Below are positions 1 through 16,382 of a stretch of DNA of 64,000 nucleotides, in pieces (position 1 is the first letter of the stretch; each line of letters starts with the position of its first letter). The stretch is taken from NCBI RefSeq assembly GCF_900109915.1, contig NZ_FOBU01000001.1, positions 1,635,004 to 1,699,003 of the forward strand, in the 5' to 3' direction. Made by a program: the position numbers and the translations under genes. Source of the stretch: Luteibacter sp. UNCMF331Sha3.1. Lineage in GTDB: Bacteria; Pseudomonadota; Gammaproteobacteria; Xanthomonadales; Rhodanobacteraceae. The notes beneath the pieces are model-generated. The model searched no databases. It was given only the letters and a program-made list of their open reading frames with translations, and was not told the origin of the DNA.

Positions 1-530
1 CTACCCGCGGCGTCCTTTATCACGCGTGGACTTTGAGGCAGCAGGAAACATATATTCTTGGAATCGACACATCCCGAGATCTTCCCCCGGAGGACGAGTG
101 ACGCGACATCCACGCTCGTGCGTGAGAACGGCGCAATGTATAGGACTGTCAGAACACCAGTAGCGAGCATACTTGCTATGGCGAAACCACCTATGGCGAA
201 TATCGAACGCCTAATAACCTTCGAATAGGCCCTCGCCGCGTGTTTCAGATCGCTAAGCGTCGTCCCCGCATTCTTCGCCGAAGTCAGCGCCTGACGTACG
301 GGTTTGGCGACTTCTTTATCGACCCGCTGTACCTCGGTAGCGATCGCTGATTTCGCAGCATTTAGTGCAGCGTCAACTACGTCATGCTTGGCCGCTTGCA
401 AATCTGTCACGGCGGCCTCAACCATTTTTCGCAACGCGTCTAGATCTTGACGCTCTGCCTCGACGAGGTCGATCAGGTTCATCAGTGCCGCGTAACTGTT
501 CTGGATGTATCTATCTGGAATGTCTGCCAT
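1..530 (-). CDS. Coiled-coil/transmembrane protein of the island cargo (3' end beyond window)
   Basis: Not recognised. From the ATG at 530 the frame stays open for 176 residues and runs off the left edge. Roughly residues 1-100 are rich in Ala, Glu, Asp, Lys and Val with heptad-like spacing, suggesting a long helix or coiled coil. At about 113-136 there is one hydrophobic segment (starting SIFAIGGFAIASML) that reads as a membrane span, followed by a polar tail containing two cysteines. The start ATG overlaps the TGA of the preceding gene (ATGA), so the two are probably co-translated and may act together. A membrane-anchored partner of a cytoplasmic effector is one possibility, but no function can be assigned. 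Confidence 0.7.
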   Translation of the reverse strand, partial: MADIPDRYIQNSYAALMNLIDLVEAERQDLDALRKMVEAAVTDLQAAKHDVVDAALNAAKSAIATEVQRVDKEVAKPVRQALTSAKNAGTTLSDLKHAARAYSKVIRRSIFAIGGFAIASMLATGVLTVLYIAPFSRTSVDVASLVLRGKISGCVDSKNICFLLPQSPRVIKDAAG

Positions 531-1264
531 CACCCGAGCTCCGGTCCGTCGTATCGTCTTGCGTGTCGCTGAATGTCCTTTGTGATACGTGCATCTTGCT
601 CAAGCCTAGCGCGGTCGATCGCCTGATTTAGAGAGGCTTGAAAGGTCTCGATTTCGTGTCGGACACGGAAGAAGTCAGAAATGTCGGGCAGGTGCTCGAA
701 GCTGAGGTTCCCACCTCGAAATGAAAGTACGACCGCCCCGCCGCCGCCTCCACCGGTCCGTCTCGTCAGAGGACCAAGGGCCTTATAAACCACCTGCAGG
801 TAGGCGGCACAGTCGGCAGACGTCGGGAGAGCACGTGGGTCTACCATTGATACAGCCAGTTCCTCGCAGAGCTGCTGAAGATTAAGTGCTCGTCCGGGCC
901 CGCCTAGATACGGCGATGCGGTGATCGTCGGTATTGACTGAGGGCGCGGTGACGACTCGACCAACCAATGCACCTTTAGACCTACCGTTTGCAGTCGTGC
1001 CACGTCAGGCTCCGCCTTCAAGGCGACCTCGAGCGATCTACGTTTTTTTGCCTCTTTGGGGTCAGCGTTACCCGAACGCTTGAATTCGATTAGCCTGACC
1101 ATCGACGGAGATTGCAGGAGAACGTCCGCGAGGGACTTATCTAGGGGCGTTTGCTGCAGAAGGCTAACCGCGCTCGCGAGGGGTCCATCGCCCAGCCGTG
1201 TTCCTATCTCGACACCCAGTCCATAAAGGAGCGTTCCAATTACGGTGTTCTCGTACAAGTCCAT
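530..1264 (-). CDS. Unrecognised 244-aa cargo protein with a possible PD-(D/E)XK nuclease motif
   Basis: The protein matches no family I can name. Around residues 56-64 it has MVRLIEFKRSG, a hydrophobic strand ending in E-x-K, preceded by an Asp at about 46. This is the pattern of PD-(D/E)XK nuclease cores, and a Lys/Arg-rich helix follows. Near residue 168 there is a run of six glycines. The C-terminal 40 residues are a charged helix. The ATG at 1264 has an AAGGA ribosome site about 8 bases upstream. The stop overlaps the start of the next gene by 4 bp. Position in a mobile island beside a membrane protein and an XRE regulator fits a defence or maintenance role; that is inference only. Confidence 0.65.
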   Translation of the reverse strand: MDLYENTVIGTLLYGLGVEIGTRLGDGPLASAVSLLQQTPLDKSLADVLLQSPSMVRLIEFKRSGNADPKEAKKRRSLEVALKAEPDVARLQTVGLKVHWLVESSPRPQSIPTITASPYLGGPGRALNLQQLCEELAVSMVDPRALPTSADCAAYLQVVYKALGPLTRRTGGGGGGAVVLSFRGGNLSFEHLPDISDFFRVRHEIETFQASLNQAIDRARLEQDARITKDIQRHARRYDGPELG

Positions 1265-1776
1265 CGCTTGATTCCTTGGCTTCCGATTCCTATTACGAAG
1301 GCTATCGGCCGATTAGATTGTGTCTTGAGCTGCTCATCCCTTCAGGCCCCTATCCAAGCGAACCTAGGGAGGAACGCGCGCTCGAAGCCTAAGACAGAAG
1401 AGTCGTTCCAAGGCACAACTGTTCTCGCGAGCTCCGCTAGCGGTTTGGTCTCTGGTCGGCATGAATTGTCCTCGCGCATCCAGCCGTCGTCCCCGGCCTG
1501 GCGCCCCGTCGTCTCAAAGCGACTTTCGGAATTCGAGGCTAAACCGCGCCACTTTTGGTAGTGGCTCCTGGGGTTGGATCAGGCATCGTGCGGCTGGACG
1601 TTAGGCCGATCTATCGCGTTGCGACCCCGACATAGCCGGAACCTACGCCGGATTTTCAACCCATGGGTGGTGGAAGCCCGAGGCTGAGAAGTTCTAGTTT
1701 GGGTGTCCATTTCGAGCCTCGCGCGTGCCGCTAACCTAGGCCCCAGATGCACTTGTCAACCAGCCAGAGCTGATGG
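1265..1776. other. 512-bp island gap without a convincing gene
   Basis: I see no reading frame here that looks like a real protein on either strand. A plus-strand frame at 1151-1561 lies largely over the neighbouring gene and has no recognisable features. The gap separates two minus-strand gene pairs of the cargo, so it probably holds the promoter of the 530-1264 gene. A non-coding RNA cannot be excluded; I see no strong hairpin-plus-T-run terminator. Confidence 0.4.
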
Positions 1777-2328
1777 TCAATTGGTATCGCGTAGGTCGGC
1801 GCCAGAGGCGGACTTGCCCCTGTCTACCTCGTTCCATCGAAGGAGGTCGTGTGGCGTTCCTTCGAACCGTACAACGAGGGGACCGTCGGGCCAGGTATTG
1901 GTCCAAGCAGCCTCTAGCAGCAGCCGCGCGTCTGTCTCCGACGGCAGCACACGCCCCTCCCCTTGGCGAAGTTCGACCCAAACAGCCTTTCCCTCCCTAG
2001 CCCACCCGGAGTGGTCTAGGAGCGTTGTAACCGCCATTGACGTGAATTGATTCCCGCGCCAGAACAGCCACAGAGGGGCGCCATTGGCGTCCAAAGGCGG
2101 AAGCGGAATCTGTTCTAAGGCTCCCGTGACCGGGTCGAAGCCAGCGCGGCCCAGGCGAGCGGTAAGCTCCCCCGAAGGCGAACCCAGGGAACTGACAACG
2201 CATAGCCCCGGCTCTTCGACGCTTTCAATGACATCGCTCAGCGGTCCGCTACCAATTCGTCCACACCGTGTCCCGCTGCGGACAAACCGATGATAGAAAC
2301 TAACGAAAATTGAGGGTCCGAAGATCAT
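1777..2328 (-). CDS. Unrecognised 183-aa island protein
   Basis: No known family recognised. I place the start at the ATG at 2328 because it overlaps the TGA of the upstream gene (ATGA), a typical translational coupling; an in-frame TTG at 2364 would add 12 residues. The protein begins MIFGPSIFVSFYHRFVRSG and is mixed alpha/beta in character, with aromatic-rich stretches such as PLWLFWRGNQF at about residues 85-95. There is no signal peptide or membrane span. It probably works with the 117-residue product of the overlapping upstream gene. Codon use is less GC-biased than in the chromosomal genes. Confidence 0.6.
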   Translation of the reverse strand: MIFGPSIFVSFYHRFVRSGTRCGRIGSGPLSDVIESVEEPGLCVVSSLGSPSGELTARLGRAGFDPVTGALEQIPLPPLDANGAPLWLFWRGNQFTSMAVTTLLDHSGWAREGKAVWVELRQGEGRVLPSETDARLLLEAAWTNTWPDGPLVVRFEGTPHDLLRWNEVDRGKSASGADLRDTN

Positions 2329-2678
2329 CGTGCCGGACCTGCGGGGTCTGCCGTCTCCCGACAATGCGGCAGCCGGCTCTCGATGTAGCTCTGCATCGCC
2401 CCCCTCGACCGAAGAGCAGGAATGGGTACGGTCTCTTGGCGAAACCTAGCCAACTCGATCGCGTAGGCCATCTGGGCGGCCGTCGGCTCTTTCAAATCCC
2501 AGTCGATTAGATCAAGGAGCAGCCGATTAAACTCGTCCGAGATACGCCGCGAAAAGGCTTCCCTGACGTCCTTCGATCCAAGGCGCTCGCACTGAAGCTG
2601 TAACGCTACGGCGAGCGGAGGGGCGAGATCCAGCTCCAAACTGAGGTCAAAGCCCTGAGCAATCAGGTAGACGGGCAT
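2325..2678 (-). CDS. Unrecognised 117-aa island protein, first gene of the cargo operon
   Basis: Function unknown. Residues about 66-105 contain EPTAAQMAYAIEL followed by a basic stretch and MQSYIESRLP. This resembles the short PT-x-x-Q-x-x-x-A helical motif seen at the ends of some plasmid and island proteins, but the match is only suggestive. The ATG at 2678 is the first start after the regulatory gap shared with the divergent XRE gene. The stop overlaps the next start by 4 bp, giving a two-gene unit with 1777-2328. No membrane segment or signal peptide is visible. Confidence 0.6.
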   Translation of the reverse strand: MPVYLIAQGFDLSLELDLAPPLAVALQLQCERLGSKDVREAFSRRISDEFNRLLLDLIDWDLKEPTAAQMAYAIELARFRQETVPIPALRSRGAMQSYIESRLPHCRETADPAGPAR

Positions 2679-2706
2679 CGTGCGGACTCCGTTTCTACAT
2701 ATATAT

Positions 2707-2730
2707 AGACTACATCTAAGGGCGTAGTCT
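2707..2730. promoter_or_regulatory. Inverted repeat, candidate XRE operator
   Basis: AGACTAC (2707-2713) and GTAGTCT (2724-2730) form a perfect 7-bp inverted repeat with a 10-bp spacer, beside a TATATATA tract at about 2699-2706. It sits in the 82-bp gap between the divergent cargo operon and the XRE gene, the usual place for an autoregulatory operator. Binding is inferred. Confidence 0.55.
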
Positions 2731-2760
2731 TAAAAGTAGCGGAATTCTAGCCTCGTCGAC

Positions 2761-2985
2761 ATGGACGAGGTCAAAACACTAGCTAGGCTAAGCAAAGCAA
2801 TCCTCCAGCTCCGGACAGCGATGGGGGTTAGCCAGGAGAGCTTTGCTGATTCGATTTCGATGCATCGCGCGCAATACAGCAAAATTGAACGCGGCGAGAT
2901 AAACGTTACGATCCTGACCCTTCGCAGAATTGCAAAGGGCTTGGGAACGACCGCGGCTGATCTTCTAGACCAAGCGAAAATCTAG
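2761..2985 (+). CDS. XRE-family helix-turn-helix regulator
   Basis: A 74-residue protein that is almost entirely a Cro/CI-type HTH domain. The helix pair is visible at about residues 20-45 (GVSQESFADSISMHR, then KIERGEIN), followed by the usual LRRIAKGLGTTAADLL helix. It is likely a dimeric DNA-binding repressor controlling the divergent cargo operon and itself through the inverted repeat at 2707-2730. The ATG at 2761 is the only reasonable start. Small XRE proteins of this size commonly regulate mobile-element or toxin/defence modules; the specific target is inferred from position. Confidence 0.85.
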   Translation: MDEVKTLARLSKAILQLRTAMGVSQESFADSISMHRAQYSKIERGEINVTILTLRRIAKGLGTTAADLLDQAKI

Positions 2986-3075
2986 CTCCTTCCTCGCCGG
3001 ACATGCCGTCGAGCTAGCGCGCGGCAATCCCAGTTCACAATGCAGTTCGCCACCACGGACCAGAGGTTTCGGGTT

Positions 3076-3468
3076 CTACCGGCGCCCTGGCATAGGACGC
3101 AAACGCGTCGCTTCGAGCTCGGCGCGCAATCGGGTAACTTCTAACTGCAACACAGCATTGATGCTGTGGCACATTGCCAGCTGCTGCTGCAGCGACGTCA
3201 CCCGCATCACTGCGGCTCGCAGCATGGTACGTGCCTGGGTCGCGGAAGGGCCCCGCTCTATAATCGTGCGTATCTCTTCGCGCACCCTCGGCAGGGCGCA
3301 CCCCTTGTGGCCGATGAGGGTTCGGCTTCGTCCAGCCTCTAGCGCGACCACCGCGTACGAGATTTTCAGCTTGTTCGTCCCGTGGCGGCGCAACAATTCA
3401 GGATGGGTCGGCTCACCTGCAACCAGTCGTTGCAGAGCCGCGCGAAAATCCTCCTCCGCGCTGGTCAC
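3076..3468 (-). CDS. ginD: Small recombination partner (GinD/TnpC-like)
   Basis: A 130-residue protein encoded immediately after the third recombinase. Its GTG start (3466-3468) overlaps that gene's TGA (GTGA). The N-terminal half is basic and helical with a possible helix-turn-helix (GTNKLKISYAVVALEAGRS at about 30-48). The C-terminal half, from about residue 75, is a heptad-like coiled coil. This matches the small last gene of ginABCD operons and TnpC of Tn554, accessory factors for the recombinases. The gene symbol is given by position, size and character, not by alignment. Confidence 0.6.
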   Translation of the reverse strand: MTSAEEDFRAALQRLVAGEPTHPELLRRHGTNKLKISYAVVALEAGRSRTLIGHKGCALPRVREEIRTIIERGPSATQARTMLRAAVMRVTSLQQQLAMCHSINAVLQLEVTRLRAELEATRLRPMPGRR

Positions 3469-5486
3469 TTCGCCTTATTTCCGAGTGATCGCACCATCCG
3501 CTTTGCAATAGCCAAGCGCTTGCGCAGGACCGTCGGCGACCGCTCACCAGCAGCTACGTACTCAGCCGCGCTCGTTTGCAGCATGTTCAGACGCTTCTCC
3601 CAATAAGGAAGGTGGCGGGTTGAAGCTACGAATAGCGGGCATCCACTGCACGTTGATGGGCTCTGGAACGCCATGTTAGGTGACCGCTTCGCCCATGACT
3701 GCGTCTGGGCCATTGTGTTACACCGTGACTTCCTAGGATTCAGTGAGATCCCGCAGTGCCCATACTCTAGGTCGATTAGCCGAATATCCTCGTTAACAAC
3801 CGCTACTTCGAAGTCTTCTTCGTCACCTTCGGCAATTGGGAATTCGAGGATCTCGCGCACAAGTGGTCCGGCCACGGCAATTTCGCCGTTTGTGACTTCT
3901 CGAAAGAAACGAGCCGTGCTTTGGACAGAAGCTGCATCAAGCGATGACACGAGAGAAGCATCGTTTCCTATATAGCGGCGCTCCGTCATTGCCACTTGCA
4001 TGTGTTTGTAATGGCGCGATATCGCTTCAATCAGACGGTGGTCAATTCGATACACGAATGTAGCGAACGTTGTCCTCCAAAGATGGCCACGAAGCTCATC
4101 GTTCTCGTGGAAGCGGGCAATGTCTGCCGAATCTAGCTGATTGACATCACAATGGTCGACGAGGAATTGCTTCTGTAGGTTGCTTAGATAGTCGGCGGTT
4201 GCAAAGCCAATCGACTCAGAGACTCGCGGGAAGCCACGCGCACTGCTGAAGGTCAGGATGAGATTCGGGCTTCCCGCTAGGTCGCGCCAACGCGCATATA
4301 GCCGATGAAGCACGGCCAACGCGCGCACTGGAGGTGGCAGCTCGGGACCGCCGGCGATACGGCTACCGACAAGCCACTCGGCTTCTCGCTTATGGACCTT
4401 CAGTTCTGCGCTACGCACATAGAAGTGCTCCATCATCCCGTCGCGGGACGTACGAATGTGCACGCAGGACGGAAGGTCGGTGTCAGGACCGGCGGTATCC
4501 CGCAGTCCATCGAGTTCCGCAGCGCGTAGACCGGCGCAAGATTGCAGGGTGATCACACATGCGGCCTGAAGGCTTGTGACCAATCGACGTACTATCTGGC
4601 GGCCCTCGATATTGAAGGTGCGCCCGTCGCGGTACGCGCGCACGTAAGCTGCACCGTCGAACCATGGGCGACCGGTCCGCTCATCGGTGGTGAAAGCAAA
4701 ATCATCGATCGCCTCGCGGCTTCGCTCATAAAAACGGGAAATCGCGTACTGACTTGCACAGGGATCTGGGGCATCGCCGCATATGGATTCCTGAAGACGG
4801 ATAATGTCGTCAGCTCGATCAGTGATCCAGGTGAACGCATTGGTCATAAGGAGTAGCGCGACTTCGTCCGACAGCGGCTGAAGTTTCTCGCCGCGATGGA
4901 GGTCCAATCGGTGTTTTACGACGCTTTCGATCCCTTCGCCACGAAATGGCGCAGACGCTGGCACAAGAATGCCATACGCCTGCAAGGCGGCACGCTGCCG
5001 AAAGACGTACCGGACAAAGGCCAGGCGTCGACACGCCGAAGCGTACGTGATCTGCCGTGGACGCGTGCGCTCACCGAAATGTGTCTCGTGCGTTTCAAGG
5101 AAATGAATCAAGAATCGCTCGGACGCCTCATCGTCCATCTGAGTGAAGTCAGTCATTCCCTCAGCAACCATCCATCTGGCACCGCTCTCGATCATACCCA
5201 TCATCCCGCCCAGTGCAGTGCCAGCGATTGGTTTGCCACCCCGGGGGTCGTAGATCATCGTCCAGATGAGCATTTTCAGGTGGTATAGAAGGGCGGCGTA
5301 GAGCGGATCAAGCAGCGATCCATCGGCCGTCACGGCGATATCCCAGTCGAACGTCAACGCTTTGGGATGGCGTGCTGGCGGTCGGTCGGCGATACGCCAC
5401 TCTGTATCGTCAAAGCGAAACCAACCGGTTGGACTATCAGGCCCTCTGAGGTCTGAGGCTAGATGCGCATGCGCTTCGTAGGTCAT
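3465..5486 (-). CDS. ginC: Tyrosine recombinase, third of trio (GinC-like)
   Basis: A 673-residue integrase-type recombinase. I start it at the ATG at 5486, which overlaps the TGA of the second recombinase (ATGA); a longer in-frame reading to 5789 lies inside that gene and is unlikely. The catalytic tyrosine-recombinase boxes are visible: box I AGLRAAELDGL with its Arg, then HLWRTTFATF supplying H-x-x-R, then RHYKHMQ...RRYIG supplying the late His and nucleophilic Tyr. After the catalytic domain come several Cys (CGISL, CNTM, CSGCPLF), possibly a small metal site. It acts with the other two recombinases in site-specific insertion of the island. Confidence 0.8.
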   Translation of the reverse strand: MTYEAHAHLASDLRGPDSPTGWFRFDDTEWRIADRPPARHPKALTFDWDIAVTADGSLLDPLYAALLYHLKMLIWTMIYDPRGGKPIAGTALGGMMGMIESGARWMVAEGMTDFTQMDDEASERFLIHFLETHETHFGERTRPRQITYASACRRLAFVRYVFRQRAALQAYGILVPASAPFRGEGIESVVKHRLDLHRGEKLQPLSDEVALLLMTNAFTWITDRADDIIRLQESICGDAPDPCASQYAISRFYERSREAIDDFAFTTDERTGRPWFDGAAYVRAYRDGRTFNIEGRQIVRRLVTSLQAACVITLQSCAGLRAAELDGLRDTAGPDTDLPSCVHIRTSRDGMMEHFYVRSAELKVHKREAEWLVGSRIAGGPELPPPVRALAVLHRLYARWRDLAGSPNLILTFSSARGFPRVSESIGFATADYLSNLQKQFLVDHCDVNQLDSADIARFHENDELRGHLWRTTFATFVYRIDHRLIEAISRHYKHMQVAMTERRYIGNDASLVSSLDAASVQSTARFFREVTNGEIAVAGPLVREILEFPIAEGDEEDFEVAVVNEDIRLIDLEYGHCGISLNPRKSRCNTMAQTQSWAKRSPNMAFQSPSTCSGCPLFVASTRHLPYWEKRLNMLQTSAAEYVAAGERSPTVLRKRLAIAKRMVRSLGNKAK

Positions 5487-7339
5487 TCGATCACCGGAAG
5501 AGAAGGAAGCAAGCGTTGTGCACCGGCGGTAAACACAGGTTCCGGGAATGCAGGCAGCCACACCTTTATAAGTGCCTCGTAGGCGTTGCCCCAACGGGCA
5601 TGGAACGCTGCGTCGCCCATCGTCGGTCGCAGTTGGAGGAAGCGCTCGGCAAGCTGACCGCATCGGGCCGCCGCGCGAGTATCGTTGAGGTCGATCATGG
5701 CCATCGGGCAACCAGGACATTCCGCAAAGGCGGTGCACAATCGTCCCTCGCGTTGGCCCGCAATCGGGCTCGCATAGGGGTCGACACATCGAAACCCGTC
5801 CGTGGCAGCAGTCGCGTCATACCCCTCAGGCATGTCTCGAGGTTCCACGCGCCCATTGCTTATAGCCCAGCGTTGGTGGCGTTCCATGGCATGACCAAAC
5901 TGACGTTGCCGCCGCTGCAAGGTTTCGCCCTTCTGGTAGTGAGTACGCGTCGTGTTCAAACTCTTGTGATCCAGAAACGTACCGGTCAGTGCGGTATCGC
6001 CAGAGGAATCTTCATCAACCAGATCGGCCACGTCACCGCGTATCTCTCGCAGCCCTGTCCAGCGAAAGCCGCCGTCTTGACAGAAATGCGTCATGTGCCG
6101 TTCGAACTCTGTTCTGCCGCCGCGCTTTTTCACCATTGCGTACGTGTCGAGCTCGCTCGGGTCCGCTCGGTTTCGCCCAATGAAACAGAAAAGGTAGCGG
6201 GTATATGGATGATCGCTGTTTTCGCGAAGGTAGGAAGTCCACCGAAGAAGGAAAATGAAGACGTTTCCAGGACTCGTCGGATCGTCATCGACGGGGTACC
6301 TTTTCTCAATCGGGGATCCGCTCCCAGTCTTAACGACCTTGGCTCGCTGTTTTACCGTGGCGACATGTACCATGTCCCCGCCGACGCGTCTGTAGTGCTG
6401 AACTTCACTGGCGTCAAAATCGACAAGCGCCTGGAGATTGATACCTGTGGCGTGGGCTAGGTGGTAGACGAACGCACAAAGGTCTGCTGCGTAAGGACCA
6501 AAGTTTCGGATCATTCGGCGGTAGCCGTAGGCCTGAATTCGGCGGAATTCGGTTGGGTGCTTTACCTGGAGATGTTGCCGCTCCGGAAGCGCAGCACCGA
6601 ACTTCATCTTCGCCTCGCGCACAATCAACCCGGCCACCGCGCGTTCTCGCTGAACGGCGCTAAGTGAGCCATCTTGCAAATACTGTTCGGCGAGTCGCTC
6701 GTCTTCCCAAAGACCCTCAACGAACTTCATTGTGGCAGCGACGGATTGCCTGCAGTGGACGTAGAAGTCCAGCGTTTCGTCTCGGGACTTCTCTTCGCGC
6801 TGAGGCCTGACCTCGCCACGTGCCGCTCCTGGCCAAGGGTTCTCACGCACCTCGCTATCAGTTGGCAACGGCATGCCTAATTCACGCATCCCGTCCAACA
6901 GTTTCTTCAGAATGCTCAATCGATGGAATCGCGTGTTGTATCCGAGAACATAGGTTCCGTCGGGAGCCGTTCTACTTAGGCTTTCGTCGATGTACCGGTT
7001 TATCCATTGTGTATTGAGGTCACTCACGGCAAGCGTGCCAGCGCTACTTGTTTCGCGCGCGAAACGCACGATCCCGTGCTTAAGATTGGTCATCCAACCC
7101 GTATAGGTGGCGATCCGATAGCCGGTGGCAAGGTGCGAGAGAACCTTAGCTGCGTCCTCCCAAAGTGTCTTAAGTTCGAGAAGAAACGAGCAATCAATCC
7201 AGAGTTCGCCTTCACGGTCTGTTGCCGACGCCAGAAACTCGAGACGGCCGTCCTCAGTTCTCAGCGCCGGACGCCCGTTCGTATTTGGCGACACCGAGAT
7301 GGAGTCGAAGCGCCTCTTCGATTCGCCTAATTTAGCCAT
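5483..7339 (-). CDS. ginB: Tyrosine recombinase, second of trio (GinB/TnpB-like)
   Basis: A 618-residue recombinase with ATG at 7339, 21 bp after the stop of the first recombinase, and a 4-bp overlap with the third. The C-terminal half has the end of a tyrosine-recombinase domain: GLREIRGDVAD with an Arg, then GTFLDHKSLNTTRTHYQKG with the His and nucleophilic Tyr. The segment expected to be box I reads HATGINLQALVDF, with Asn where the first catalytic Arg normally sits, so box I looks degenerate. A Cys-containing tail follows (AECPGCPMAMI). Size matches TnpB of Tn554 (about 630 residues). Confidence 0.78.
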   Translation of the reverse strand: MAKLGESKRRFDSISVSPNTNGRPALRTEDGRLEFLASATDREGELWIDCSFLLELKTLWEDAAKVLSHLATGYRIATYTGWMTNLKHGIVRFARETSSAGTLAVSDLNTQWINRYIDESLSRTAPDGTYVLGYNTRFHRLSILKKLLDGMRELGMPLPTDSEVRENPWPGAARGEVRPQREEKSRDETLDFYVHCRQSVAATMKFVEGLWEDERLAEQYLQDGSLSAVQRERAVAGLIVREAKMKFGAALPERQHLQVKHPTEFRRIQAYGYRRMIRNFGPYAADLCAFVYHLAHATGINLQALVDFDASEVQHYRRVGGDMVHVATVKQRAKVVKTGSGSPIEKRYPVDDDPTSPGNVFIFLLRWTSYLRENSDHPYTRYLFCFIGRNRADPSELDTYAMVKKRGGRTEFERHMTHFCQDGGFRWTGLREIRGDVADLVDEDSSGDTALTGTFLDHKSLNTTRTHYQKGETLQRRQRQFGHAMERHQRWAISNGRVEPRDMPEGYDATAATDGFRCVDPYASPIAGQREGRLCTAFAECPGCPMAMIDLNDTRAAARCGQLAERFLQLRPTMGDAAFHARWGNAYEALIKVWLPAFPEPVFTAGAQRLLPSLPVIE

Positions 7340-7360
7340 GTTTTTTCGCCATGCCAGTAT

Positions 7361-8656
7361 TCATATGTCGCACAATGCGTTATGACTTTCGCTCGTTCGC
7401 ATGGCAACCTCGTGCTCCAACTTCTGGTATGCACGTCCATAGATCTGAGCCTCGAATAGAGTTACGGCTTTTAGATAGATGGTCTCGGTGGTCTCGCGGC
7501 TCGTGTGACCCAGCTGACTTTGAATATATTTGACCGGGTCTCGATCGCCTGCGCGTTTGCGCTCTATCCAAGTCCAGATGGCGTAGGTGTGCCGCAGATC
7601 GTGAAATCGGAACGTCCGATCGATGCGGCCTTCCATCTTGAGTTTCGGCTGCGCCTTTCGATACGCCTGCCAGATTGATGCAGGATTGGTCGGGAGGCCT
7701 GGGCGTGTGCGCGAGCTAGCCGGATTGACGATCAGTGTTTCGCAGCCAAAAGTTGCGCGGGCATGTCGCGATTCGAGGGCCAGATGACGCTCGCCTTCGA
7801 TATATTGCTGAATTTCCTTGAGGAGCCAACTGGGAAAGAGAACGCGGCGCCACACGCGCCCCTTCCCGAGCAGACGGACCGGAATCAATACATAGTCGTC
7901 CCCGCGCGTGCGTTGCAGTGCGGGTGCGAGTTCGGCCATCAGCAAGCCGGCTACCTCGGCGCGCCTCAGCCCCGTGTTCAGAACAATCTCGGCCGCTAGG
8001 CGAAATCTCGAGCTGGCGTTACGCGGACTCGCCGCATGCGCTGACGGAAGCGGCCCAAGCGCCGAAAGAATTGCACGGGCTTCGTCGAAGGTCATGAAAT
8101 TGATGGTGTCGTCCCGCTCGTGCTGACCGTACGTGCGTCCGGCGACTATAGAGGACACCGTCCGACGCCCTATAACAAGGTCCTCCACCGGGAAGCGGCA
8201 TGCAAGTCGCCCGTCTTGCTGCAGCCATAACACGAAAGCCCGAATATTCTGCATTCGACGAACAATCGTGTTACGCGAGTAGGGCTTTCCTGTAGCCGGG
8301 GAGGCGCGGAACATGCTGCTCGCATACGACTCGATGTGAGCCGGTGTAAGTTCGCCAGGCTTCACACGCACGGCGTCCATGAAATCGTAAAAGTCCTTCA
8401 GGTCGCGGACGCAGGCCTCGCGAGTGTTGGAACTGTGCCTAAGCCTCGTTGGCCGACTAGGTAGGCCACGCACGACGTATCTTTGGTCGACGAATGCGAG
8501 TGCCGCCTCCACCACATCTTGAGTCTTCATCGAAACGAGGAAAGGCAATCCGTCCGGCAACTGACGTACCGCACGCGCTCGTAGGTCACCCGTCATCGCA
8601 TCGGTGAACGCAGTCCAGGCAATCCCTGCCTGGACTTCCTGGAATGTCGGTTCCAC
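7361..8656 (-). CDS. ginA: Tyrosine recombinase, first of trio (GinA/TnpA-like)
   Basis: A 431-residue phage-integrase-family enzyme with a complete active site: Arg231 in NTGLRRAEVAGL, His352 and Arg355 in FHDLRHTYAIW, His384 in LGHTSRETT and the nucleophile Tyr394 in ETIYLKA. The SAM-like core-binding domain occupies about residues 45-150. The start is a GTG at 8656. It is the first gene of the operon and the one nearest the island end, where its binding sites are expected (repeats at 8714-8802). It should cut and join the island ends with the target by a covalent 3'-phosphotyrosine intermediate. Confidence 0.88.
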   Translation of the reverse strand: MEPTFQEVQAGIAWTAFTDAMTGDLRARAVRQLPDGLPFLVSMKTQDVVEAALAFVDQRYVVRGLPSRPTRLRHSSNTREACVRDLKDFYDFMDAVRVKPGELTPAHIESYASSMFRASPATGKPYSRNTIVRRMQNIRAFVLWLQQDGRLACRFPVEDLVIGRRTVSSIVAGRTYGQHERDDTINFMTFDEARAILSALGPLPSAHAASPRNASSRFRLAAEIVLNTGLRRAEVAGLLMAELAPALQRTRGDDYVLIPVRLLGKGRVWRRVLFPSWLLKEIQQYIEGERHLALESRHARATFGCETLIVNPASSRTRPGLPTNPASIWQAYRKAQPKLKMEGRIDRTFRFHDLRHTYAIWTWIERKRAGDRDPVKYIQSQLGHTSRETTETIYLKAVTLFEAQIYGRAYQKLEHEVAMRTSESHNALCDI

Positions 8657-8713
8657 TGCGAATCCCTATTCGTGAAGGGTCGCAATTCTGGATGTCGAGA
8701 GAGCAGAACTTCA

Positions 8714-8802
8714 AGTGTTCAGTCTCGGTAGGCAGTACGCCTTCAGTGTTCAGTAAATGCAGCGCCTAAGCTAGGTGTGCCAACGCTGCGAGGGTGAACA
8801 CT
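8714..8802. repeat. Island-end repeats, putative recombinase binding sites (att)
   Basis: AGTGTTCAGT occurs twice in direct orientation (8714-8723 and 8745-8754, spaced by 31 bp) and AGTGTTCA once inverted (8795-8802). All lie between the first recombinase gene and the break point in the radical SAM gene. A related GTGTTCG lies just inside the target gene (8820-8826). Repeats spaced about three helical turns next to an integrase gene are typical arm- or core-type sites; their use here is inferred. Confidence 0.55.
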
Positions 8803-9059
8803 CAAAGGAAGGTCATACCGTGTTCGCACCCGCGATAGGGGTTCGTGGCGTGGTCGAATCCGATATCCGGTGAGTCGTTGCGGGTGATGACGCTGCGGGC
8901 GAGTTCCTCGCGCACCTCGGTGACGGGCCGACGGTCGTCGTCTTCGCGGTGCCAGCCATCGTCCTCGGTCTGGTGACGCGTCGGCTCGAACCGGCCTTCG
9001 GGATTGGAGGCGGCACCGCGGCCTTTGTGGAGGCGGGTCATGGGGATGGCGTCGGACAT
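8802..9059 (-). pseudogene. 5' fragment of PA0069-family radical SAM gene, interrupted by the island
   Basis: From the ATG at 9059 the frame reads a highly conserved N-terminus ([24 protein letters not shown], then [20 protein letters not shown] and NPYRGCEHG) that I recognise as the PA0069 family of radical SAM proteins. In intact members GCEHG is followed by C-x-Y-C, completing the CxxxCxxC iron-sulfur motif. Here it is followed by MTFL and a stop from island DNA, so only the first cluster cysteine remains. The rest of the gene should lie beyond the other island end, left of the window. The fragment is probably non-functional. Confidence 0.85.
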
Positions 9060-9202
9060 CGTACAAATGTACGTCACGACGGTCTCAGATGTCGCGATAC
9101 GAATAGGGATCGAGCGGAAGACGGGACGGCCATTTGTATCGTGCGGCGCGCGGAGGGACACCCCGGTGCGTCGGCTGCATAGCCGTGCATCCGGGTTCTC
9201 TT

Positions 9203-14723: not shown

Positions 14724-16196
14724 TCAGAACTTGTAGAGCGCGTTGAGGGTGTACTCGTTGCCGGAGGTCCTCTGGCGGCCGAGACCGTTGGTGGTCGTCG
14801 AATTGAGCTTCGAATGGATCACTTCGCCGCTGAAGTCGAAGGCACCGACGCTGTACTGCAGGCTCAGCGCCTGCTGGCGGTTCTTCAGCAAGCCGGCCGT
14901 GTTCGGTGCGCGCCAGCGCAACACGTCGCCTTCGTCGAGCTTGCTGGCGGCGACGAAACCGAACACCGTCCAGTGCTTGTCGAACTTGTAGCCGAGCTGC
15001 AGCCAGCCGCCCTTGTCCTTGATGTCGCCGAACTGCGAAAGATCGCCGAAGATCTGGCCGATGGCGTTACCCGTGTAGACGGCGCCCTTCACGATGAAGT
15101 TGCCGGGCATCCACATGCCGCCGACCTCCACCGCCGTGCTCTTGATGTCGCTCTTGATCGGCGTGACGGTTTCCCCGTCGACACCATGCAGGTCCACGCG
15201 GCTGTAATGGCCCGCGGCGAACACCTGCCAGTTCTTGCCCTTGGCGGTGATGCGCGCCTGGATCTGCGGCTTGAAGCCCGCGTTGCCGGCGGTGAGGTAG
15301 TTGGTGGTCAGGCCCGGGCCGCTCCAGCTGCCTTCGTAGGCACCGAGGTCGAAGCGCCATTTCACACCATCGGAGCCGTGGTTGAGCTCCTGCATCCACA
15401 CGATGCCCGGATAGCGCCAGCCGATCAGGCCGGTGCCGTAACCAAGCGGGAACGCGATGTGCGACAGCGACTGCGGCACGTAGTCGAGCGGGAACAGCAG
15501 CTGCCACATCTGACCGATGCGGAACGTGGTGCCCGTGTCGACGTTGGTGATGTCCATGTACGCCTGGCGCAGGCGCTGCGCTGGCTGCTGCTGGCTGTAC
15601 GCGCCCGTGCCGTTGAATCCGCCGAAGAAGTCCATCTCGATGCGGCCGGAACCAGCCCAGCTCTCGTTGAACTTGCCGCCGGTGAAGTCGAGCCAGAAGC
15701 GCGTGTTGCGCACGTCGACGCCGGTGATGGAGTTGGCGCGGCCCGTCGGGCCCGGTAGCGGGTACTCGGCGTTCTGGCCGTTGCCGTACTGGTAATTGGC
15801 GTCCTGCTTGAAGCCGCTGACGTTGATGAAGCCATGCAGCGCCACCGAGACGCCCGGCGCCGAGCTGAAGGTCGGCTTGGCGGGCACGGCGGCGACGGTC
15901 TTCTCGACCTTGGCCACCTTCTCATCCGTTTGCTGTACCTGCGTCTGCGCGGCCTGCGCCGTGGCCGTGGCCTGCGTCGTGGCGGCCTTCTGCTCCTGGA
16001 TCATCGCCTTGAGCTCGGCGAGCTGCTGCTCGAGCTGGTTGACCCGGGATTCGAGTTCGGCCTCGCGGCTGGCGGATTTCTTCGACTTCGACTGCGCGTG
16101 GGCCACGTCCGGCAATGCGGCCATCGGCAGCATGAGGGCACAGGCGACACTGAGGGCGATGGCCTTGCGGCCACCGGATCGGATCGTCTTCATCAT
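14724..16196 (-). CDS. DcaP-like trimeric outer-membrane porin
   Basis: A 490-residue exported protein. The start at 16196 (ATGATG after GGGGAG) gives a signal peptide ending AHA. Next comes a coiled coil at about residues 45-105 (ESRVNQLEQQLAELKAMIQ and a Gln/Thr/Ala-rich run), then a beta-barrel beginning VALHGFINVSGFKQDA and ending in aromatic YTLNALYKF, the C-terminal Phe typical of barrels. A coiled coil followed by a barrel is the DcaP family plan, porins for dicarboxylates and other anionic solutes. It is first in an operon with the MFS symporter and divergent from acs. Confidence 0.8.
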   Translation of the reverse strand: MMKTIRSGGRKAIALSVACALMLPMAALPDVAHAQSKSKKSASREAELESRVNQLEQQLAELKAMIQEQKAATTQATATAQAAQTQVQQTDEKVAKVEKTVAAVPAKPTFSSAPGVSVALHGFINVSGFKQDANYQYGNGQNAEYPLPGPTGRANSITGVDVRNTRFWLDFTGGKFNESWAGSGRIEMDFFGGFNGTGAYSQQQPAQRLRQAYMDITNVDTGTTFRIGQMWQLLFPLDYVPQSLSHIAFPLGYGTGLIGWRYPGIVWMQELNHGSDGVKWRFDLGAYEGSWSGPGLTTNYLTAGNAGFKPQIQARITAKGKNWQVFAAGHYSRVDLHGVDGETVTPIKSDIKSTAVEVGGMWMPGNFIVKGAVYTGNAIGQIFGDLSQFGDIKDKGGWLQLGYKFDKHWTVFGFVAASKLDEGDVLRWRAPNTAGLLKNRQQALSLQYSVGAFDFSGEVIHSKLNSTTTNGLGRQRTSGNEYTLNALYKF

Positions 16197-16382
16197 GGTC
16201 TCCCCAACCATTGGCGGGTCGAGCATGTGACACGTCCGTTGGTCGTGCCATTCGCCAAAGGTCGAACCTCGACCAAAGTCGTAGCGGTATCGCAGCTTTA
16301 TGTTGCGTCGCGACGCTAAACTTCGGCCATAGCCCGACGCACCCATTCGGTATCGCCGAAGCAACGTATCGCAGGAGCCAGC
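16197..16382. promoter_or_regulatory. Divergent promoter region, porin/MFS versus acs
   Basis: This 186-bp gap must drive both the porin-MFS operon and acs-crbR. It contains a perfect 6-bp inverted repeat with 3-bp spacer, GGTCGA-ACC-TCGACC (16260-16274), a candidate site for the response regulator encoded downstream of acs. I see no certain promoter hexamers. Confidence 0.4.

Follow-up and report, generated by a model that had tools for sequence, protein, structure and literature searches.

GInt-like islands split a PA0069-family radical SAM gene within its metal-binding motif and mostly carry a complete copy of it

Why should an integrative element lodge in the active-site codons of a conserved enzyme, and what becomes of that enzyme? 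The question is raised by a genomic island of Luteibacter sp. UNCMF331Sha3.1 (genome G000 in what follows; 4.12 Mb), whose right-hand end occupies positions 1-8817 of the window, the 64,000-nucleotide stretch of DNA analyzed here (C10:1635004-1699003). At this end a four-gene recombination operon, ginABCD, lies against the 5′ part of a radical SAM gene of the PA0069 family. We propose that the island is one of a set of GInt-like elements (the likeness being judged by operon layout and published descriptions) that probably use active-site codons as their attachment site and bring with them, as we infer, a functional replacement for the gene that they destroy. The features on which this proposal turns are, in window coordinates:

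8818..9059, minus strand, 5′ part of the host PA0069-family radical SAM gene (80 codons plus GG), found by tblastn and matching positions 1-72 of the 348 of NF033668
8794..8817, minus strand, right terminal inverted repeat of the element, TATGACCTTCCTTTGAGTGTTCAC as read on the minus strand, agreeing at 17 of 24 bases with the left end at L001:11889-11912
7361..8656, minus strand, ginA-like tyrosine recombinase gene (431 amino acids, aa), with PF00589 Phage_integrase at 6.2e-12 and matches to profiles A1/A7
5483..7339, minus strand, ginB-like gene (618 aa), with a homologue in nine other islands including the one in recJ, two of them in pieces or truncated, and a weak profile link to GinA
3465..5486, minus strand, ginC-like gene (673 aa from an ATG inside a listed 774-aa open reading frame), with a profile link to GinA
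3076..3468, minus strand, gene of a ginD-like small partner (130 aa), with a homologue in eight other islands

The order along the host gene, from right to left, is thus its 5′ part, the element end (TATGACC...), ginA, ginB, ginC, ginD, and small cargo genes, with 18 kb more of the island to the left of the window. A preliminary description of this DNA placed the break in the radical SAM gene immediately after GCEHG, with loss of two of the three cysteines of the iron-sulfur motif, and this is borne out: the cut gene ends ...GCEH followed by GG, so that of the three cysteines of CxxxCxxC it keeps the first and lacks the rest. Against NF033668 the 5′ half by itself scores 82.7 bits, as expected for a quarter of the gene. 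The missing 3′ part, which had been predicted to lie to the left of position 1, is found there at C10:1616046-1616888 (residues 87-367), 27 kb to the left of the 5′ part and adjoining the left element end at C10:1616892; counted from TATGAC to GTCATA, the element is 26,929 bp long. GInts are described with a short AT-rich 3′ end; here AT content is 46% in the left 300 bp and 43% in the element, and 39% and 33% in the flanks. The terminal inverted repeats are imperfect; G000, G050, G031, and G650 show them clearly, and in the other six elements compared they are weak or do not stand out in ungapped comparison. As for direct repeats, which flank GInts in imperfect form (10-17 nt) and which the preliminary description had suggested looking for, no exact repeat of at least 13 bp was found between the end region and 30 kb on the left, leaving a weak and imperfect match of the host motif GARCAYGGNTGC to AARTGYTGNTGC at the left junction. 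A hybrid gene rebuilt at the junction was considered and rejected for the gin islands: element sequence, not a new 3′ part, follows GCEHG.

The open reading frame coordinates confirm the operon spacing described earlier (a 21-bp gap, then two 4-bp overlaps). The accompanying claim of three tandem tyrosine recombinases and a small partner holds for GinA, from Pfam, and for GinC, from profile comparison, and remains likely for GinB, which is weakly linked. GinB, GinC, and GinD match no Pfam or NCBIfam family at E ≤ 0.001. Profile comparison aligns GinC with GinA over R-H-R-H-Y (E 9.4e-7, probability 91%), and R322, H469, R472, H496, and Y506 of GinC (numbering of a 674-aa piece) are invariant in eight sequences; for GinB the corresponding comparison is weak (E 0.0019, probability 15%). 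Because of these profile strengths, sequence comparison makes a tyrosine recombinase identity firm for two of the proteins and likely for the third.

Is the site specific, as the preliminary description supposed, and used repeatedly? A profile of three GinA proteins (E ≤ 1e-15) finds matches in 11 of 398 genomes of the order; since profile searches score few candidates per genome, this and the other counts from such searches are lower bounds. Ten of the 11 GinA operons, from three families, sit in a split PA0069 gene, and their breakpoints agree to within 1 bp. When several relatives were searched with PA0069, extra 3′ pieces began at residues 84-88 and 5′ pieces ended at 88-96; shorter pieces start elsewhere, and the 5′ piece of G637 ends at 119. 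All 14 of the 5′ junctions fall within 1 bp, 12 of them ending TGYGARCAYGG and two (G652, G686) one base earlier. On the other side, the gene picks up again at the following cysteine codon in 15 of 16 3′ junctions, that of G001 being too decayed to call; five of the 16 3′ halves (four among the 15, plus G001) were missed by the scripted motif and were read by eye. Strand-biased circularizing elements (SEs) leave a 6-bp footprint behind, according to the available part of the published account (PMC10214605). In G652 the 3′ half is preceded by GCATGG, a variant of the host motif, as would be consistent with the 6-bp copying that this account describes for SE and Tn554 elements. The codons GCEHG|C are among the most conserved bases of the gene, and most hosts of the order therefore have the site. 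No report of PA0069 or recJ as an integration target turned up in the literature searched.

The four gin homologues occur in the same order in eight other genomes; in three of these, G757, G760, and G762, ginD is encoded on the opposite strand. The operon is complete in nine of the 11 GinA genomes (in G031 across a contig break inside ginB) and degraded in G692 and G600. GinA, GinB, and GinC are 22-65% identical between islands, and 92-96% in the close pair G757/G762. In seven islands 88-252 bp separate the 5′ half of the target from ginA; the distance is 1.0 kb in G050, 2.9 kb in G650, and 5.7 kb in G600. This last island has a partial ginA, and the complete PA0069 copy stands between it and the 5′ half. 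One of these genomes, G650, is Rhodanobacter sp. Soil772 (identical over 16,430 bases compared), of the same family as G000. Wider searches with the GinA profile gave one match in 369 genomes of the class (E ≤ 1e-20) and six in 233 genomes of the family, all of them islands already known; a GinC profile matched four of 398 genomes of the phylum and no phages.

Two observations lie beyond the reach of the preliminary description: the island carries a complete copy of its target, and a parallel element exists at recJ. By the preliminary description's own criterion, an intact radical SAM gene elsewhere that continued the cut one would have told against it. An intact gene does exist, inside the island at C10:1622778-1623878 (L002:2772-3875), but with DNA identities of 75% and 80% to the two host halves it is a separate copy and does not continue the cut gene. 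The carried copies of G000, G650, and G757 score 491, 494, and 507 bits against NF033668 (cut-off 360 bits; three of three scanned), and the motif GCE/QHGCxYC, with its CxxxCxxC, is present in all 10 carried copies examined. A complete second PA0069 gene is found in eight of the 10 gin islands (G000, G031, G050, G600, G650, G757, G760, and G762). Among the other 266 PA0069-positive genomes, two full-length copies occur in three (G603, G617, and G684), or in six if one adds G560, whose equal scores on two contigs perhaps reflect an assembly duplicate, and G048 and G436, which have a split and a complete gene and are without gin genes; this count was made from per-genome match numbers, and all 24 gin-less genomes with at least two matches were resolved.

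In G684 (L081), G617 (L082), and G603 (C8:146184-148485) two complete PA0069 genes stand side by side; in the first two genomes one member of the pair, with PYKGCEHG, is close in lineage to the carried copies, and its neighbor resembles native genes. A palindrome, GTACATTTGTAC, lies directly before the ATG both of the cut gene of G000 (window about 9060-9075) and of the carried copy and may be a regulator site. It was set aside as a promoter palindrome, being found just upstream of or inside the first codons and in this genus only; the scripted count of three in 36 native genes is too low because the alignments start inside the box.

The eleventh operon, in G754, lies in recJ, and the single PA0069 match of that genome is elsewhere and intact. 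The two recJ halves (5′, C1:1789518-1790309; 3′, C1:1812730-1813566) correspond to residues 1-305 (80% identical) and 304-588 (88%) of the uninterrupted recJ of G551. A complete RecJ (match C1:1796535-1798190) starts within 150 bp of ginD; it is 34% identical to the G551 protein, has the Pfam domains DHH, DHHA1, and RecJ_OB, all three over cut-off, and matches TIGR00644 over positions 7-544 at 345.8 bits, under the cut-off of 396.9. There is one recJ match each in G551, G650, and G000. G754 has a third RecJ-like gene (L112, C1:2066702-2068222), 42% identical to the carried one, with no gin genes in the 13 kb examined around it. The proximity of carried gene and operon (at most 300 bp from ginD in G757, G760, G762, and G754), together with the nature of RecJ as a DNA-repair nuclease, might suggest that the carried enzyme serves the element itself, for example in repair during recombination, its match to the target being a by-product. 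The carried gene follows the target, however, with radical SAM genes in the radical SAM islands and RecJ in the recJ island, and G652 has a complete ginABCD and no copy; we regard this explanation as highly improbable.

Were the carried copies inherited with the element or with the host? In a tree of 61 rows built on the 3′ part of PA0069, seven of eight carried copies fall outside the gene lineage of their own host, and most host halves cluster with the native genes of the taxa to which they belong: those of G650 and G031 with Rhodanobacter-type genes, that of G640 with G637, and that of G050 with G039, the host half of G652 forming an isolated long branch. The carried copies form the groups {G650, G031}, {G757, G762, G760}, and {G050, G048, G436, G600}, the last with 94/84 support. 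Label changes on the tree number four, against 9.5 in shuffles, none of 500 being as low. For eight of 10 carried copies, those of the G048 and G436 islands counted among the 10, the best match is the copy of another island, G000 and G050 being the exceptions. Most carried copies are inherited with the element rather than with the host.

Several observations weigh against the proposal that the copies are replacements that travel with the element. The carried copy of G000 is of its own genus (92% identical to that of G017) and may therefore have been picked up locally. The position and strand of the carried copy vary between islands: it is next to ginD in G757, G760, and G762, stands inverted near the far end in G650 and G031, and lies elsewhere in G000, G050, and G600. 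Both points, and extra copies of the same genus in G000 and probably in G008, G003, and G013, would suit an alternative in which the second copies are cargo captured by homologous recombination of the split gene with an incoming intact allele and were never selected as replacements. Against such capture, G650/G031 and G757/G762/G760 share a foreign copy that occupies one position in the element although the hosts differ; between G760 and G757, which belong to different genera, the host halves are 76% identical and the carried copies 83%; and the carried RecJ, at 34% identity to that of a relative, is too far removed for easy recombination. We consider capture unlikely.

The remaining objections concern whether a replacement is needed at all. 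G652, with a complete ginABCD, and G692, with a degraded one, have the two halves and no second copy, so carrying a copy is not obligatory, and PA0069 is without a match in 122 of the 398 genomes of the order, which marks the gene as dispensable. In six other, more distant sets of gin-type loci (three plasmids, three genomes) the 17-42 kb examined contained no split gene accompanied by a copy, so the habit may be limited to this clade. Immunity of the carried copies through a recoded target motif was considered as a further role and is unsupported, since the motif is not clearly altered: eight of nine copies are below the average for native pairs that have diverged to a similar degree, but only two of nine fall in the lowest 5% (32 native copies were compared, and the copies of G048, G684, and G617 were left out). 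Taken by themselves, G652 and G692 look exactly like plain GInt- or Tn554-like insertions into a dispensable gene, a reading in which a second copy has no meaning and which the many genomes lacking PA0069 also favor. What argues against it is the complete second copy in eight of 10 gin islands against three to six of the 266 other genomes, and the matching RecJ copy in the recJ element. Fisher's test of eight in 10 against three in 266 gives p of about 1e-11, which is only a guide, given the relatedness of the genomes and a slight difference in how the two counts were defined. We judge plain insertion very unlikely.

On the replacement proposal, which we consider likely, the ginABCD module would recombine a circular form of the element into a single attachment site, the codons GCEHG|C of the [4Fe-4S]-binding CxxxCxxC; the insertion would destroy the host PA0069 gene, and the element would compensate with the complete PA0069 gene of its own. 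That the operon catalyzes insertion is suggested by analogy with published GInt experiments on relatives, and the carried copy would presumably be expressed and take over the lost function. Recombination between the 5′ remnant and a carried copy in the same orientation could later remove the gin genes, so that a gene would again stand at the native place and the site would be open once more. Such events would account for gin-less islands and, in this genus, for eroded 3′ fragments downstream of intact genes. Nine of 23 genomes of the genus (G000, G001, G003, G004, G005, G008, G012, G013, and G014) have eroded or complete 3′ pieces that follow an intact gene downstream, with contig and strand in common, and 5′ pieces are found in G000 alone. 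In G008, G013, and G003 an element end still precedes the displaced 3′ half, and no gin genes were found at these loci. The island of G003 lies between the intact gene and two genes (94% and 85% identical) that follow the uninterrupted gene in G011, their order being changed. G000 has another 3′ fossil (L001:2097-2325), some 9 kb past the left end. It is the copy at the ancestral place that was cut, and it is flanked on the right by genes for an acetyl-CoA synthetase, a further open reading frame (14727-16364, no Pfam match), and a major facilitator superfamily transporter (assignments from Pfam), a stretch common to G008, G001, and G009.

The other features of the island within the window are:

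8716..8800, no strand, three TGTTCA/TGAACA motifs near the right end (8716, 8747, 8795), where a simple count expects about 0.3 per 600 bases; possible recombinase sites
2761..2985, plus strand, small helix-turn-helix regulator of Cro/C1 type in the cargo, HTH_3 at 3.5e-13
1777..2678, minus strand, two cargo open reading frames (1777-2364 and 2325-2678) without Pfam or PADLOC match
1366..1572, minus strand, decayed second 5′ PA0069 remnant, residues 13-81, 48% identical to the carried copy (tblastn E 2.4e-12)
1..1264, minus strand, two cargo open reading frames (530-1264 and 3-533, the latter extending past the window edge)

To the left of the window follow genes for an RHS-repeat protein of 1756 aa, a 375-aa ParB_N protein with an RHS match below cut-off, a serine recombinase, the complete PA0069-family protein, a 1276-aa protein (C10:1618553-1622383; no Pfam or PADLOC match), and an AAA_16/nSTAND ATPase, and then the second element end and the host 3′ part. 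The RHS-repeat gene followed by a short ParB_N-domain gene (L002:7263-13627) has the layout of a polymorphic RHS system. The serine recombinase gene (L002:3999-5537; Resolvase and Recombinase domains) begins some 120 bp upstream of the carried PA0069 gene, on the opposite strand, and is perhaps part of a different element or of a capture event. A defense role for the G000 cargo was considered and dropped, with no PADLOC match in nine pieces or in two further proteins. In three related islands PADLOC matched four of 10 cargo proteins scanned: a PDC-S06 candidate and a type IIG restriction-methylase in G652 (L060), OloB in G757 (L064), and a type I restriction enzyme in G050 (L004).

How do these elements relate to known ones? 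Like the present islands, GInts have three recombinase-type genes and a small protein at one end, variable cargo that includes restriction genes, and high insertion specificity; in the available part of the published account (PMC5385486), however, no carried target copy is described, and the published GinC lacks the first arginine, which here is present in GinC and absent from GinB. We know of no target copy in Tn554, which likewise has tandem recombinase genes, a small protein, a short spacer, and a named target. The preliminary label "GInt/Tn554-like" therefore fits in style (TnpC-like small partner, short spacer, named target) but not in the gene content of Tn554, whose three genes tnpABC, as far as the account in PMC10214605 goes, include no counterpart of the fourth gene found here, ginC. 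RIT elements also have several tandem recombinase-type genes and are described there with three recombinases, and SE proteins form clusters of their own; we set both apart on these descriptions (PMC10214605). The nearest precedent is Tn552-II with tgl, a site-specific Tn554-type element that cuts a gene and carries its homologue, and whose authors propose that tgl rescues the target (PMC12486829, in its available part). From what is given there, it is a single 9-kb element of staphylococci with tnpABC and a target gene of unassigned function, whereas the present elements have ginABCD, cut a conserved enzyme in its catalytic motif, and comprise many islands and two targets.

The carried copies (L002, L058, and L063) also match NCBIfam NF038136, the intein-containing Rv2578c-family radical SAM proteins, in which a mobile element of a different kind, an intein and not an island, interrupts a related radical SAM family. 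The second stretch of this match restarts at about the third cysteine of CxxxCxxC, so that, on model coordinates only, the intein of the related family may sit in the same motif.

Integrative elements usually limit the harm they do by choosing gene ends or by rebuilding the end of a gene, as phage 21/e14 does in icd and SXT in prfC, where the element compensates for damage to its target. Those elements rebuild one gene end at the junction; the present islands bring an entire separate gene, which stands at a distance from it. To cut an enzyme inside its metal-binding motif and to carry the whole enzyme along would be a different rule, closer in logic to that of inteins. A broader proposal, for and against which we see about equal weight, is that there is a class of target-replacing integrative elements, in which the recombination module and a whole replacement for the target form one inherited unit, specificity and replacement change together (radical SAM, and RecJ in G754), catalytic codons serve as a low-cost attachment site, and repeated insertion, replacement, and partial loss create an island hotspot and exchange the host enzyme for foreign alleles. 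If this is true, it supplies a search rule, a split gene with a complete and diverged copy near gin genes, by which the recJ case has already been found; it would explain the island hotspot in Rhodanobacteraceae and their relatives; and it would show one way in which native alleles of conserved enzymes come to be replaced by foreign ones.

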